Positions 2-5,605 of a stretch of 64,000 nt of DNA are shown in pieces. The stretch spans positions 372,001 through 436,000 of the forward strand of contig NZ_PGLQ01000001.1 in the NCBI RefSeq assembly GCF_002802865.1, given 5' to 3'. Source of the DNA: Bifidobacterium scaligerum. Its GTDB lineage: Bacteria > Actinomycetota > Actinomycetes > Actinomycetales > Bifidobacteriaceae. Under the pieces are notes generated by a model, which did no database searches, had not been told where the DNA came from, and worked only from the letters and a program-made list of their open reading frames with translations. Position 1 is the first letter of the stretch. Every line of letters starts with the position of its first letter. A program made the position numbers and the translations under genes.

Positions 2-979
2 TACACGCCGAAGTGCGTGGTGAAGACACTGGTCAATGTGATTGAACCGTTCAAAGGGCGCGTCTATGACCCGGCGTGCGGCTCGGGCGGCATGTTTGTA
101 CAGTCGGCCGAGTTCGTGCGCAACCATCAGGGTAACATTAACAACATCTCCGTCTATGGTCAGGAGTCGAACCCGACAACGTGGAAGATGGCCACGATGA
201 ACCTCGCCATTCGTGGTATCGATGCCGATCTTGGCCCGAAAAACGATGACACGTTCTTCAACGATCTGCATCGCACTGAACGGTTTGACTACATTCTCGC
301 CAATCCACCGTTTAACCTGTCCGATTGGGGCGGCGACAAGCTCAAGGACGATCCACGATGGGAATACGGTGTGCCGCCTGAAGGCAATGCAAACTTCGCA
401 TGGATGCAGCACATGATTCACCACCTGTCTCAGTCCGGCAGAATCGGTCTGGTGCTTGCCAACGGCTCGCTATCATCCCAGACGAACAATGAAGGGGAGA
501 TTCGCAAGAACATCGTGAATGCCGGACTGGTCGAAGGTATCGTTGCCATGCCGACGCAGTTGTTCTTTTCCACGCAGATTCCGGTATGCCTATGGTTCCT
601 TCGCAAAGGTCGTCCTGCTGATTCGAAGACACTATTCGTGGATGCTCGCAATATGGGTACGATGATCAGCCGCTCGCAGCGGACTCTGACCGATGAGGAC
701 ATTCAGAGGATCGCGTTCACGTTTGATGCGTTCCGTGACGGAACGTTGGAAGAAGAAAAGGGCTTCTCCGCCGCAGTGTCTATCGAAGACATTGCCAAGC
801 AGGATTACATTCTTACTCCCGGCCGCTATGTCGGCATCGCCGAACAGGAAGAGGACGATGAGCCCTTCGATGAAAAGATGAAGCGTCTGACCGGTGAACT
901 TGCCAAATGTTTCGAGGAGTCCAACCGACTGCAAGCCGAAATCAAGAAAAACCTGGAGGCGATTGGGTATGGGGTGTAA
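2..979 (+). CDS. hsdM: Type I restriction-modification DNA methyltransferase subunit HsdM (5' truncated)
   Basis: N6-adenine methyltransferase subunit of a type I R-M complex; it transfers methyl groups from S-adenosylmethionine to the site chosen by HsdS. The reading frame is open from the window edge and the first visible codons ([11 protein letters not shown]) are internal family sequence, so the true start lies upstream. The SAM-binding motif [10 protein letters not shown] is at about nt 68-97 and the catalytic NPPF motif is at about nt 302-313. The C-terminal tail is helical and charged, as expected for HsdS contact. The gene ends overlapping hsdS by 11 bp, so the two are probably translationally coupled. 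hsdR is not in the window and is presumably upstream. Confidence 0.95.
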
Positions 980-2171
980 ATGGAATCAAGAACCGTTACG
1001 TGAGTTCGTTTCGGATCTTTTTAAAGGAGTTGTACCAATATACATCGATGAAGGTCACGAATATGCAGTTCCGGTTATTGGACAGCGATGTGTTAGAAAT
1101 TATGAGATAGATTTGTCTCCTATTCGATTCCATAATGGATTTTCCAAGCCGATTCCGATTCGGAAAATGCTGCGTAAGCATGATATTTTGATTAATGCGA
1201 CAGGTGTCGGTAGCGCTGGAAGAGTTGCTCAAATACGGGATGACATACGAGCAACGATTGATGGCCATGTCATTGTGGTAAGAGCGCAAAAAATTGATCC
1301 TATGTATTTGGGATATGCACTCAAGTGTCAACAGTCGAAAATCGAGCAGTTGGCGGAGGGATCTACTGGTCAAACCGAGATGAATAAGCAACGTTTGCAA
1401 GATGAGATCATCATTTCGTATCCCAATTCAATTGTTGACCAGTTGAAAATAGTTCATATCCTTAATTCCATTGACAGGCAGATAGTATTTCTTAATCAGG
1501 CAAACGGCCATTTGTTGGAGTTGCTATCAGCTAAACACGACGACAATTTCAGTTCTCGGCTTGATGCTGAACTGCGTGATGTGTGTGTTCTTGTAAAGGA
1601 AAAGACTACGGTCGAAAATGCAAATCTCAACACCTATGTCTCAACGGAAAGTCTTATCCCCGATAAAGGCGGTAGACAGCGTGCTTCTGGTCTGCCGCAA
1701 TCCGGGAAAGTGACAGTGTATAAATCAGGCGATATCTTGATTTCTAACATTCGCCCTTACTTTAAGAAAATTTGGTTTGCAGATTGTAACGGCACTTGCT
1801 CGAATGACGTACTGGTCTTCCGCGCAAAGGATGAAAACCTGGCACCTTATATCTTTTTCACCCTTTACTCGGATGTGTTTTTCAGATATATGGTTGCTGG
1901 TTCTAAAGGAACAAAAATGCCACGTGGAGATAGGAACCAGATAATGTCTTATAACATTCCCATCATCAGTAATGAAGCACGAGCATTTTCTAACGACGCC
2001 AAAACAGTTTTGAACCTTATTTCTAATAACACTAAAGAAATCGTTACACTTGAACAACTTCGTGACGCGCTGCTGCCCAAACTGATGTCTGGTGAGATTG
2101 ATGTGTCGAAGGTTGAACTGCCTACGCCGCCAGAACAAACCGTTCCAACAAATGGCCGTTTGTCTGATTAA
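969..2171 (+). CDS. hsdS: Type I restriction-modification specificity subunit HsdS (expressed copy)
   Basis: DNA-recognition subunit of the type I complex, 400 aa. ATG at 969 is chosen because GGAGG at 954-958 lies just upstream; this makes an 11-bp overlap with hsdM. It has two target-recognition domains (about residues 5-150 and 205-330), each followed by a helical conserved region. The central one contains [16 protein letters not shown], whose codons include a 19-bp inversion site (1501-1519). The C-terminal one is [27 protein letters not shown], and its last codons run through an inverted copy of the site (2144-2162). The second recognition domain is therefore bracketed by inverted repeats. 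The gene is visibly more AT-rich than hsdM, as is common for exchangeable specificity segments. Confidence 0.95.
1501..1519 (+). repeat. hsdS inversion site A
   Basis: First of four identical 19-bp copies of caaacggccatttgttgga in the locus. It lies in the central conserved region of the expressed hsdS, encoding part of NGHLLE. Together with the preceding cttaatcag it matches site B over about 29 bp with one mismatch. It is the predicted crossover site for the adjacent tyrosine recombinase. Confidence 0.85.
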
Positions 2172-2607
2172 GACAATCAATCTGACGATCGTATGTGCCA
2201 AGGACATAGGCGATTTTGTGCTGAGTGGTTATATCTGGAATGTTGATTACGCAATAGTGAACGTGATTTCGGTTGATACCCGGAACCGCGCTCGCTGTTG
2301 TGTAATTGCTCCAGTTGATGGTTTTCAGCAGGTAGTAGATAAAATGAGGATAATTCCCTTTGAAATCAGAGACGTATAGGGTTGTATTTAGAGGCCAATA
2401 GTCATTTTCTGTATAGAAAACCTCGCCGATAGTTCCATACCGTCCAGTGATCACTCCTGGGCCATGCACTGCGACCTCATTGTGATATCCAGAGCGTCCC
2501 GAAGATGAATAAACCGGAATTTCTCCATTGAGTCGGTTCTTTGAGGGCAGATCATATCCACGTTTGAGCGTAATTGCTTCACCTAGTTTCATGCTCTGCC
2601 ATGTCAT
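2122..2607 (-). CDS. Silent 5' half of an HsdS specificity subunit (one target-recognition domain)
   Basis: 161 aa on the strand opposite hsdS. It carries one target-recognition domain (residues about 5-130) ending in [16 protein letters not shown], which matches the central conserved region of the expressed HsdS, then stops nine codons later. It starts with ATG behind agagga, so it could be translated if transcribed. Half length and orientation indicate a donor cassette. Inversion between sites B and C would place it in front of the 3' cassette at 3870. Inversion between A and B would fuse it on the minus strand to the second domain of the present hsdS. Whether the short protein is made in this orientation is unknown. 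Confidence 0.85.
   Translation of the reverse strand: MTWQSMKLGEAITLKRGYDLPSKNRLNGEIPVYSSSGRSGYHNEVAVHGPGVITGRYGTIGEVFYTENDYWPLNTTLYVSDFKGNYPHFIYYLLKTINWSNYTTASAVPGINRNHVHYCVINIPDITTQHKIAYVLGTYDRQIDCLNQTNGHLLERFVLAA
2144..2162 (-). repeat. hsdS inversion site B (inverted)
   Basis: Reverse complement of site A. It is shared by the 3' end of the plus-strand hsdS (encoding the terminal PTNGRL) and by the minus-strand half-hsdS (encoding NGHLLE). Overlapping use of both strands explains the 50-bp convergent overlap of the two reading frames. Confidence 0.85.
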
Positions 2608-2632
2608 ATTGTCCTCTTCTTCTAATTGATAG

Positions 2633-2671
2633 CGTTGAGGCCATCCGGTGCGATGCGGGATGGCCTCAACG
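2633..2671 (-). terminator. Strong stem-loop between recombinase and half-hsdS
   Basis: Perfect 14-bp inverted repeat (2633-2646 with 2658-2671, 11-nt loop). It lies just downstream of the recombinase gene and just upstream of the silent half-hsdS on the same strand. There is no clear T-run, so it is either a weak terminator or another structured element that shields the half-gene from read-through. Confidence 0.5.
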
Positions 2672-2795
2672 AACTGGACATAGTCCAGCTTATTTCATCC
2701 ATAGGCTACAGTCCCGGCTGTGAAAATGCAATACTTACGCATGCCTTATAAACGAGTTCTTTCCCTGTTAGTAGGCTCCAGTACATACTCTCCAG

Positions 2796-3770
2796 TTACC
2801 CCAGATACTTTCGGTGCGACGCTTTCACGTTGCTTTGGCTGACCAATGCGTATTGCATGGTGGTGTCTATCTTGACGTGTCCAAGTAGTTTCTGAACCTG
2901 TTCCACTGGCATGCCGCGGTTTATGGCGTTGGTGGCCATAGTACGTCGGAACTTATGTGGGTGTATGCGAGGGAGTCGCAGCTTTCTGCCAAGAGAACGA
3001 AGTCGACTTTCCACAGAACAGATGGCAATGCGTTTGTGGTTGCCGCTGAGACTGACGAATAGGGCAGGATTATCGTCGTTACGACTTCGCAGATATTCTT
3101 CAAGATGAAGTTTGGCTCTGGCGTCGAAGTAAGCTTTTCGTTCCTTATTGCCTTTGCCTTGCACGATGCATTCACGCTCATTGAGGTTGATGCTGCTGCG
3201 GTCGAGCTTCACTAATTCGCCGACTCGCATGCCGGTGGAGGAGAGCAGGTCAATCATCGCAAGATCGCGTGGTGTCTCGCATCCGTCACGCAGGCGTTCC
3301 ATATCCTCATCTGAGATGGTTTCTTTAACTCTGATTGGGGTTTTCACGCGGCGTATCTTACGTGCGGGGCTTTTGACGATATAGTCCTCATCTTCTAACC
3401 ATGAGAAAAATGTGGCGAGAATACGACGGATATTGTCCACTGTGACCTTCCCTACGTCATGCGTCGTCTGGTATTCGGTGAGATAGGCTCGAAGCTGTTC
3501 GGTATCCACTTGAGGCAGCGGAACAGAGGTTTCTTTTAAGTAATGCGTGAGTGTCGAATCATAGTATTTCAACGTACGCTCACTGCACCCTTCAAGTTCC
3601 TTGGCAGTAAGGAAGGAGTTCAGCAGTTCTATAGCTTCGTTGTCATTGCCAGGAAGATTATCTGTGCTGAGATTGGCTGACAGCACGGTTTTGAGCTGTT
3701 TGAGCTGACGCGCATCCAATGTGTTCTGCATGGCCTTCAGAATCGATTCTATGGTGCTGCTTCCTATCAT
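2796..3770 (-). CDS. Tyrosine recombinase of the XerC/XerD type, predicted hsdS invertase
   Basis: 324-aa site-specific recombinase with an N-terminal SAM-like core-binding domain (about residues 42-128) and a C-terminal catalytic domain (about 150-322). The catalytic set is visible: R182 (TGMRVGEL), a Lys at about 206-209 (GKGNKERK), H272-x-x-R275 (HPHKFRRT), H298 (LLGH) and nucleophile Y307 (TTMQYA). Length and motifs fit Xer/phage-type integrases. The chromosomal dif resolvases are not expected inside an R-M locus. Its position between hsdS pieces that share identical inverted 19-bp sites makes inversion of hsdS its likely role. An aaagg ribosome site precedes the ATG. Confidence 0.93.
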   Translation of the reverse strand: MIGSSTIESILKAMQNTLDARQLKQLKTVLSANLSTDNLPGNDNEAIELLNSFLTAKELEGCSERTLKYYDSTLTHYLKETSVPLPQVDTEQLRAYLTEYQTTHDVGKVTVDNIRRILATFFSWLEDEDYIVKSPARKIRRVKTPIRVKETISDEDMERLRDGCETPRDLAMIDLLSSTGMRVGELVKLDRSSINLNERECIVQGKGNKERKAYFDARAKLHLEEYLRSRNDDNPALFVSLSGNHKRIAICSVESRLRSLGRKLRLPRIHPHKFRRTMATNAINRGMPVEQVQKLLGHVKIDTTMQYALVSQSNVKASHRKYLG

Positions 3771-3850
3771 GTGGAACCTTTAGCTTTAATGCGTGTATGG
3801 GATACATGCATGCATAATGCGAGCCGCAGAAAAACGAGGCAATAGGCAGA

Positions 3851-3869
3851 CAAACGGCCATTTGTTGGA
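3851..3869 (+). repeat. hsdS inversion site C
   Basis: Third identical copy of the 19-bp site, same orientation as A, at the 5' boundary of the silent 3' half-hsdS cassette. The five bases before it (cagac with the first core base) match site B; similarity stops further upstream. Confidence 0.85.
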
Positions 3870-4529
3870 GATTGGGCAAAGCCTATTTGATGTAAAGCTT
3901 GGACTTTGTGAATCCATGGATGGCAAGATTGGCGTTCTTGGTGATATCGCTGAAGGAAATCCTCGTCGAAAACTCAGCAAAAACGCATTTGCAAAATATG
4001 TTGATATGGGAAGCTTATCGACTACTGGATCATATCCTAGTGGATGGAATAAACGGTCATATAACGGAGGAATGCGTTTTACGAATGGAGATACGCTCAT
4101 AGCTCGTATTACACCATGTCTCGAAAACGGCAAAGCCGCATATGTTAATTTCCTCGATGAGAATGAAGTCGCTTTTGGATCGACCGAATACATTGTTTTA
4201 ACCGGCAAGCCAGGAATCCCCAATGAGATAATGTATTTTCTTGCGAAGAATGAGGCCTTTGTTGATTACCTAATTCAGCACATGACCGGCAGCAGTGGCA
4301 GACAAAGAGTATCAGTAATAGATGCTCTGAATTGTCCGATTCGCATTCCCTCTGATGCGCTCATACAAGAAATAGGGCAAGAACTGTCTAGGATACTGAA
4401 TGTTGTGCGAGCAAATTCCGAACAGATCATGGAGCTCTCACAACTTCGCGATACATTGCTGCCCAAGCTCATATCAGGTGAGATTGATGTGTCGAAGGTT
4501 GAGCTGCCTACGCCGCCAGAACAAACCGC

Positions 4530-4548
4530 TCCAACAAATGGCCGTTTG
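4530..4548 (-). repeat. hsdS inversion site D (inverted)
   Basis: Fourth identical copy of the 19-bp site, reverse orientation, closing the silent cassette. It lies about 110 bp before the start codon of the ABC exporter ATPase, so inversions that use it change the DNA upstream of that operon. Confidence 0.85.
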
Positions 4549-4657
4549 CTATATCGAATGACAAATGTCATTGAACTTGGCAGTACTCGTGACGAATGTG
4601 GCTGGTTCTATGTGCTCGCGCTTGGGATGATGGAATCATCCAAGGAAGGGAGCGAAC

Positions 4658-5605
4658 ATGACAACCGACACTACGGCAGTCCACGTCAGCCAGCTCGTCA
4701 AGCGGTACGGCGACATGGTGGCGCTCGACTACTTCGACCTCGACGTGAAGCAGGGCGAGATCTTCGGCCTACTGGGGCCCAACGGTTCCGGCAAGACCAC
4801 GGCCATCAACTGCATCCTTGCGCTGCTCACCTACGATTCGGGCACCATTCGCGTCTTCGGACAACCGATGACGCCCACTTCATACGACCTTAAGCGGCGC
4901 ATCGGTATCGTGCCGCAGAACGTAGCCGTGTTCAACGAACTGACCGTCACCGAGAACATCGACTACTTCTGCTCGCTGTACGTGCCGAAGAAGGCCGAGC
5001 GCGAGCCTCTGGTCGAGGAGGCCATCGAATTCGCGGGATTGCAGGATTTCCGCAAATTCCGTCCCGGCAAACTCTCCGGCGGTCTTCTGCGACGCCTCAA
5101 CATCGCCTGCGGCATCGCCCACAAGCCTGATCTCATCTTCTTCGATGAACCGACCGTGGCAGTCGATCCGCAAAGCCGCAACGCGATCCTTGAAGGCATA
5201 CAGAAGCTCAATAAAGCCGGTGCCACTGTGATCTACACCAGCCACTACATGGAGGAGGTCGAGCAGATCTGCGACCGTATCCTCATCATGGATCACGGCC
5301 GTCATCTTGCGCTCGGCACCGCCGACGAGCTCAAAGCCATGATCGACACAGGAGAGCGCATCGCTATCGAAACGCTCGACCTGACTGACGAGACGCTTGC
5401 CGCCGTGCGTGCGCTCGCGTTCGTCATCGAAGCCTCCTATGACGGGCGCGAGCTGGAAGTGCGTTGCCGTCGCGGCGAGCACAACCTTGTCGACTTGATC
5501 GGTGTGCTGCGTACTTCAGGTGCGAACATCGGACACCTGACCAGCCGGCCGCCGAGCCTCAACGACGTGTTCCTGGAACTCACCGGCAAGGCGCTACGCG
5601 ACTAG
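4658..5605 (+). CDS. ABC-2 type exporter, ATP-binding protein
   Basis: 315-aa ATPase of a DrrA/CcmA-like drug or lipid exporter. The Walker A motif GPNGSGKTT is at residues 40-48, the signature LSGGL at 139-143 and Walker B LIFFDEPT at 159-166. A C-terminal extension of about 90 aa after the ATPase core is typical of the drug-resistance subfamily. A good ribosome site (aaggaaggga) precedes the ATG. It is the first gene of a three-gene operon with two dissimilar permeases, suggesting a heterodimeric membrane channel. The substrate cannot be told from sequence. The only DNA between it and the invertible hsdS locus is about 110 bp. Confidence 0.93.
   Translation: MTTDTTAVHVSQLVKRYGDMVALDYFDLDVKQGEIFGLLGPNGSGKTTAINCILALLTYDSGTIRVFGQPMTPTSYDLKRRIGIVPQNVAVFNELTVTENIDYFCSLYVPKKAEREPLVEEAIEFAGLQDFRKFRPGKLSGGLLRRLNIACGIAHKPDLIFFDEPTVAVDPQSRNAILEGIQKLNKAGATVIYTSHYMEEVEQICDRILIMDHGRHLALGTADELKAMIDTGERIAIETLDLTDETLAAVRALAFVIEASYDGRELEVRCRRGEHNLVDLIGVLRTSGANIGHLTSRPPSLNDVFLELTGKALRD

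Follow-up and report, generated by a model that had tools for sequence, protein, structure and literature searches.

Type I restriction-modification (R-M) loci that invert parts of their hsdS genes are a known and widespread kind of epigenetic switch, and the Bifidobacterium scaligerum locus described here adds to this kind, which is itself not new. The closest characterised system is SsuCC20p of Streptococcus suis. It shares with the present locus hsdM, hsdR, four target recognition domains (TRDs), one central XerD-type recombinase and four HsdS proteins. As here, each of its two 3' cassettes lies between copies of one short inverted repeat, which in S. suis is ∼14 bp long (TAAATGATGATTTA); switching requires xerD (PMC10790761). 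The SsuCC20p recombinase is normally codirectional with hsdM, whereas that of B. scaligerum is opposed to it, so that its two possible HsdS proteins are mutually exclusive and antiparallel. The order of hsdR also differs between the two systems. The type I locus of B. longum NCIMB 8809, from the same genus, is likewise among the closest known, and is likened to the present one by its gene order, R-M-S1-S2-recombinase-S3 (S1.blmNCI, S2.blmNCI, recombinase, S3.blmNCI); the published description gives names to partial HsdS genes and reports a single motif, sites and inversions being outside its analysis (PMC4618763).

In SpnIII/cod of S. pneumoniae, a tyrosine recombinase (PsrA) also inverts hsdS parts. 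PsrA acts at the 15-bp repeat IR1, IR1-like sequences occur within longer repeats, and the system has three kinds of repeat (15, 85 and 298 bp) and one active hsdS (PMC4948785, PMC7096588). In contrast, the B. scaligerum stretch has only one repeat family in place of the IR1-IR3 of the pneumococcal PsrA/cod type, with a single site present in four copies and with starts on both 5' halves. The phase-variable type I locus of Listeria monocytogenes shows, as here, a four-way shuffle of TRDs around a recombinase, but a proper start and a promoter are missing from its second hsdS (PMC7662400), whereas the corresponding half in B. scaligerum (5'b) has an ATG and a preceding GAGGA.

Anatomy of the locus

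The window, i.e. the whole stretch of 64,000 nucleotides that was analysed, starts inside hsdM of the 2.65-Mb B. scaligerum genome. Both hsdR (REase_I 2e-291) and hsdM are complete directly upstream, outside the window, with hsdR preceding hsdM. As is typical of inverting, phase-variable type I R-M systems, hsdR, hsdM and hsdS share one locus, the hsdS halves come in more than one set, inverted repeats mark the junctions of the TRDs, and the locus encodes its own intact site-specific recombinase. The features are listed below.

2..979, + strand: 3' part of hsdM, N6-adenine methylase (Pfam N6_Mtase 1e-97); the gene start lies 5' of the window
969..2171, + strand: complete hsdS in its present arrangement, 5'a + 3'a, 400 aa (PADLOC Specificity_I 1.4e-43, two stretches)
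969..1500, + strand: 5'a half, N-terminal target recognition domain, fixed beside hsdM (Methylase_S 5e-11; Specificity_I 1e-28)
1501..1519, + strand: site A, 12-bp core 1502-1513
1501..2162, no strand: cassette X with the 3'a half, bounded by sites A and B (B. aerophilum has an 89% identical cassette on the recombinase side)
2144..2162, - strand: site B, core 2150-2161
2144..2607, - strand: 5'b half, ATG at 2607 (Methylase_S 5.8e-17; Specificity_I 1.2e-54)
2144..3869, no strand: segment Y, invertible block with 5'b and the recombinase (both antisense), between sites B and C
2634..2670, no strand: perfect hairpin between recombinase and 5'b (RNA fold z -2.3)
3770->2796, - strand: tyrosine recombinase, XerC/D-like, 324 aa (Phage_integrase 1.6e-32)
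3851..3869, + strand: site C, core 3852-3863
3851..4548, no strand: cassette Z, the 3'b half (Specificity_I 2.5e-45)
4530..4548, - strand: site D, core 4536-4547

A preliminary description of this DNA had placed the sites where two 5' and two 3' hsdS halves meet, and the intervals do hold these halves: Pfam identifies an integrase domain in the recombinase and the recognition domain in both 5' halves, and the PADLOC specificity models detect all four. The present hsdS, whose start (969) overlaps the hsdM stop, gives an AlphaFold model (pLDDT 81) that contains a pair of recognition domains along with two long helices (155-194, 335-374) and matches the HsdS structures 1yf2, 7vru and 1ydx. The frame of 5'b currently stops at 2122, seven codons beyond site B. 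This half represents a complete gene start, because it has its own ATG behind the ribosome-binding-site-like (Shine-Dalgarno-like) GAGGA. Cassette Z is silent at present, having neither a start nor a preceding 5' half. The 3'b reading frame continues for 116 codons past site D (4549-4893), overlapping the start of an ABC transporter gene in another frame, and the C-terminal tail of HsdS therefore depends on the slot.

The recombinase between the sites is full length, as had been claimed. It scores 226 bits against NF040815 (NCBIfam XerA; cut-off 220), matches XerA/XerD in the PDB and is 87-94% identical in related species. The R-K-HxxR-H-Y catalytic residues of Xer-type tyrosine recombinases are legible in its sequence.

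Recombination sites and possible arrangements

All four 19-bp sites are exact copies of CAAACGGCCATTTGTTGGA, with zero mismatches (1501-1519, 2144-2162, 3851-3869 and 4530-4548) and in the order +,-,+,-, just as first reported. No further copy with up to three mismatches was found in the window (0.06 expected; none of 100 shuffles reach four), nor one with up to two mismatches elsewhere in the 2.65-Mb genome. Matches between pairs of sites extend slightly, to 21 bp for A/D, 20 bp for C/D, 23 bp for B/C and 41 bp at 88% for A/B.

Cores of 12 bp with the form AAA-N6-TTT (AAAYNNNNATTT), four per locus and ordered +,-,+,-, were found in 57 of the 75 related loci, the window included, and these 57 span several phyla. 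The same strict search gave no matches in 150 shuffled loci; a loose site detector had been dropped because it accepted chance sites. Within every one of the 57 loci the four cores are identical, and they differ between loci. Identity beyond the core usually ends within two bases; in the window it extends furthest, over six more. In the reading frame of hsdS, the core gives N-x-x-L in all 57 loci, and N179 and L182 are invariant among 25 full HsdS proteins, which means that the conserved core arms double as protein code. The variable middle of the core would suit a tyrosine recombinase, as such enzymes need crossover sequences that match. As in SsuCC20p, two identical sets of one short inverted repeat, with core AAAYNNNNATTT, surround the two 3' cassettes.

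All arrangements that can arise by the inversions A-B, B-C, C-D and A-D were enumerated. There are 16 reachable states, every joint is in frame, and four full HsdS proteins occur across the states (5'a-3'a, 5'a-3'b, 5'b-3'a and 5'b-3'b), the number originally predicted from these inversions. From the present state, a single A-B flip produces 5'b-3'a, antiparallel to hsdM, a B-C flip produces two full HsdS, and a C-D flip leaves the proteins unchanged. A single A-D flip leaves truncated forms and no full HsdS, so a second inversion is required, which also agrees with the preliminary description. With Y oriented as in the window there is always exactly one full HsdS, whatever the orientation of X and Z, while a reversed Y permits zero, one or two.

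The earlier reading of the locus as an invertible hsdS switch is thus supported by the site anatomy, the in-frame joints and the inversions seen in relatives (see below), and the locus is very probably a self-contained phase-variable type I R-M system. In the proposed mechanism, the recombinase would pair inverted sites and flip X (A-B), Y (B-C), Z (C-D) or the whole segment (A-D). Each 5' half has its own start, that of 5'a behind hsdM and that of 5'b behind the recombinase gene, and the two would compete for the pair of start-less 3' cassettes; the four HsdS proteins would provide one HsdM/HsdR with four target sequences. In the present Y orientation the A-B flip would act as an exclusive toggle between 5'a-X (parallel to hsdM) and 5'b-X (antiparallel); the other 5' half would then encode only a half-HsdS, and Z would be kept silent in reserve. 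Recombination is presumably active in the B. scaligerum strain, and its methylation would be expected to change as well.

Bifidobacteria are hard to transform, and R-M systems are part of the reason. With this locus they would join those bacteria in which members of one clone can come to differ in their restriction target, so that plasmids with matched methylation may cease to work after a flip.

Inversions and HsdS number in related loci

Two single-contig Bifidobacterium genomes (L117 and L118) differ by one 639-bp cassette that is inverted at 100.000% identity between the cores, and the right flank that follows it is collinear over 7,008 bp at 99.9%. Bases inside the 12-bp core are exchanged and those outside are unmoved, so the crossover occurs within the core. 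The same cassette inversion separates L116 from L117, at 99.7% identity. In B. aerophilum, the counterpart of window X (89% DNA identity) adjoins the recombinase and that of window Z (91% identical) is fused to 5'a, so that each occupies the opposite slot, and the boundaries of these matches coincide with the sites. In the L. cremoris plasmids pJM2A and pUCCL627F, X and Z have traded places reciprocally at 100% identity, and Y is the same in both. A plasmid search for a close copy of the window locus found none. The opposite orientation of Y is observed in B. callitrichidarum (L019). Altogether, all eight orientation patterns were called among the relatives, seven of them at four-site loci; the pattern with two full HsdS is confined to loci without the site set.

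Plasmid pJM1A (L155, 4766-7670) carries two oppositely oriented copies of one 3' hsdS cassette and has lost the other cassette, which implies exchange between molecules, beyond inversion alone. Contig ends of relatives lie within 150 bp of a site in 10 of 36 cases (8.8% expected), a weak sign of mixed populations because the null ignores the clustering of ends near the recombinase. The only clear case is a B. aerophilum contig of 3,372 bp (L022), which starts inside one recombination site and ends beside another, as would be seen with a culture in which more than one arrangement was present.

Among the 37 four-site loci with a recombinase codirectional with hsdM, 36 have one full HsdS, one has none and none has two. 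This slot association (P = 1e-9) is absent from the 20 opposed four-site loci (P = 0.2), which hold exactly one full HsdS because of their topology; both P values are only indicative, as the loci are not fully independent and the HsdS gene calls in relatives come from custom-built profiles. In S. suis, long reads likewise gave no molecule with two complete alleles (PMC10790761). The exactly-one pattern could result from selection for one specificity, or from coupled cassette exchange. The relatives give testable rules, namely that a 12-bp site doubles as code for a motif conserved in HsdS, that an hsdS running antiparallel to hsdM is expressed, and that each locus has a single complete HsdS. 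The comparison also narrows an open question in S. suis, that of how cassettes change places.

Nine loci (L036, L051, L088, L120, L130, L133, L138, L142 and L144) have two complete tandem hsdS genes around a related recombinase. All nine are without the four-site set; the interpretation of every 'M S2 REC S2' locus as a two-full state was rejected on these grounds, and they represent a different or locked design.

Probable expression of 5'b and possible activity of half-HsdS

The preliminary description limited expression to genes that run the same way as hsdM. A related view, which we consider unlikely, is that only the hsdS adjoining hsdM is expressed, with 5'b and Z as silent templates, an arrangement described for S. 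pneumoniae and L. monocytogenes. The sequence in front of 5'b makes its expression uncertain, since the gap of 188 bp to the recombinase contains a strong hairpin, and a search for a strong sigma-70-like promoter before 5'b found none. The hairpin lies 25 nt before the ribosome-binding-site-like sequence. It was not called a terminator, as a T-run is absent, and an Rfam search of the locus, hairpin included, gave no match; a similar 70-bp stretch occurs in B. callitrichidarum (L019), and parts of the hairpin recur in a few other Bifidobacterium genomes. Against a silent 5'b, however, stand its own ATG and Shine-Dalgarno-like sequence, and the state of the relatives, about half of which have merely a half-HsdS adjoining hsdM. 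In 11 of the 20 four-site relatives with an opposed recombinase, a half-HsdS follows hsdM and the only full HsdS is antiparallel to it. SsuCC20p provides a precedent, as its hsdS behind the recombinase gene (xerD) is transcribed and methylates DNA (PMC10790761). Restriction of expression to the hsdM direction is therefore probably wrong, and 5'b is likely to be expressed in the B. scaligerum strain. That the locus has decayed or become locked, its sites persisting after recombination ceased, is very unlikely. Only one arrangement was assembled in the window genome, and some relatives (the nine tandem-hsdS loci) have lost the site set, but the window retains four identical sites, an intact and conserved recombinase and open frames in all halves, and its cassettes occupy the opposite slots to those of B. 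aerophilum.

A flip leaves behind a half-HsdS (191 aa for 5'a, 161 aa for 5'b), which might itself form a homodimer with a palindromic target, which would bring the repertoire to six. We regard this as improbable, though there are parallels. In the AlphaFold model, a half-HsdS would keep its recognition domain and, with the cut near 182, the greater part of the central helix (155-194). The truncated HsdS of NgoAV (208 aa) reads GCAN8TGC (PMC9577141), and those of EcoR124I and EcoDXXI behave likewise (PMC3874165). The only type I system of B. longum CCUG 30698 includes a recombinase, and the strain has the motif ACCN5RTTG and also the palindromic GCAN8TGC (PMC4618763), though a link of this palindrome to a half-HsdS would be conjectural. 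Only 1 of the 37 loci that could be without any full HsdS is in this state, and such rarity suggests that halves are no substitute for a full HsdS, and for wild-type SsuCC20p only the two bipartite motifs of full HsdS were reported (PMC10790761). If true, orphan half-HsdS activity would yield six specificities from one locus. A combined reading, also doubtful if slightly less so, is that selection or a mechanistic coupling holds the four-site layout to exactly one full HsdS per cell, and that the orphan 5' half moreover forms a dimer with a palindromic target, again with six specificities. The one-HsdS rule would then follow from topology where the recombinase opposes hsdM, as in the window, and elsewhere from correlated cassette states.

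The invertible block of the window is without cargo genes between the recombinase and 5'b. In B. callitrichidarum (L019:7554-8489) an AbiD/Abi_2 gene lies between these two, inside the invertible block, and in L025 (7043-7842) the same interval holds DUF7724, DUF7723 and DUF4160 genes, with matching DNA in L020, L021 and L030.
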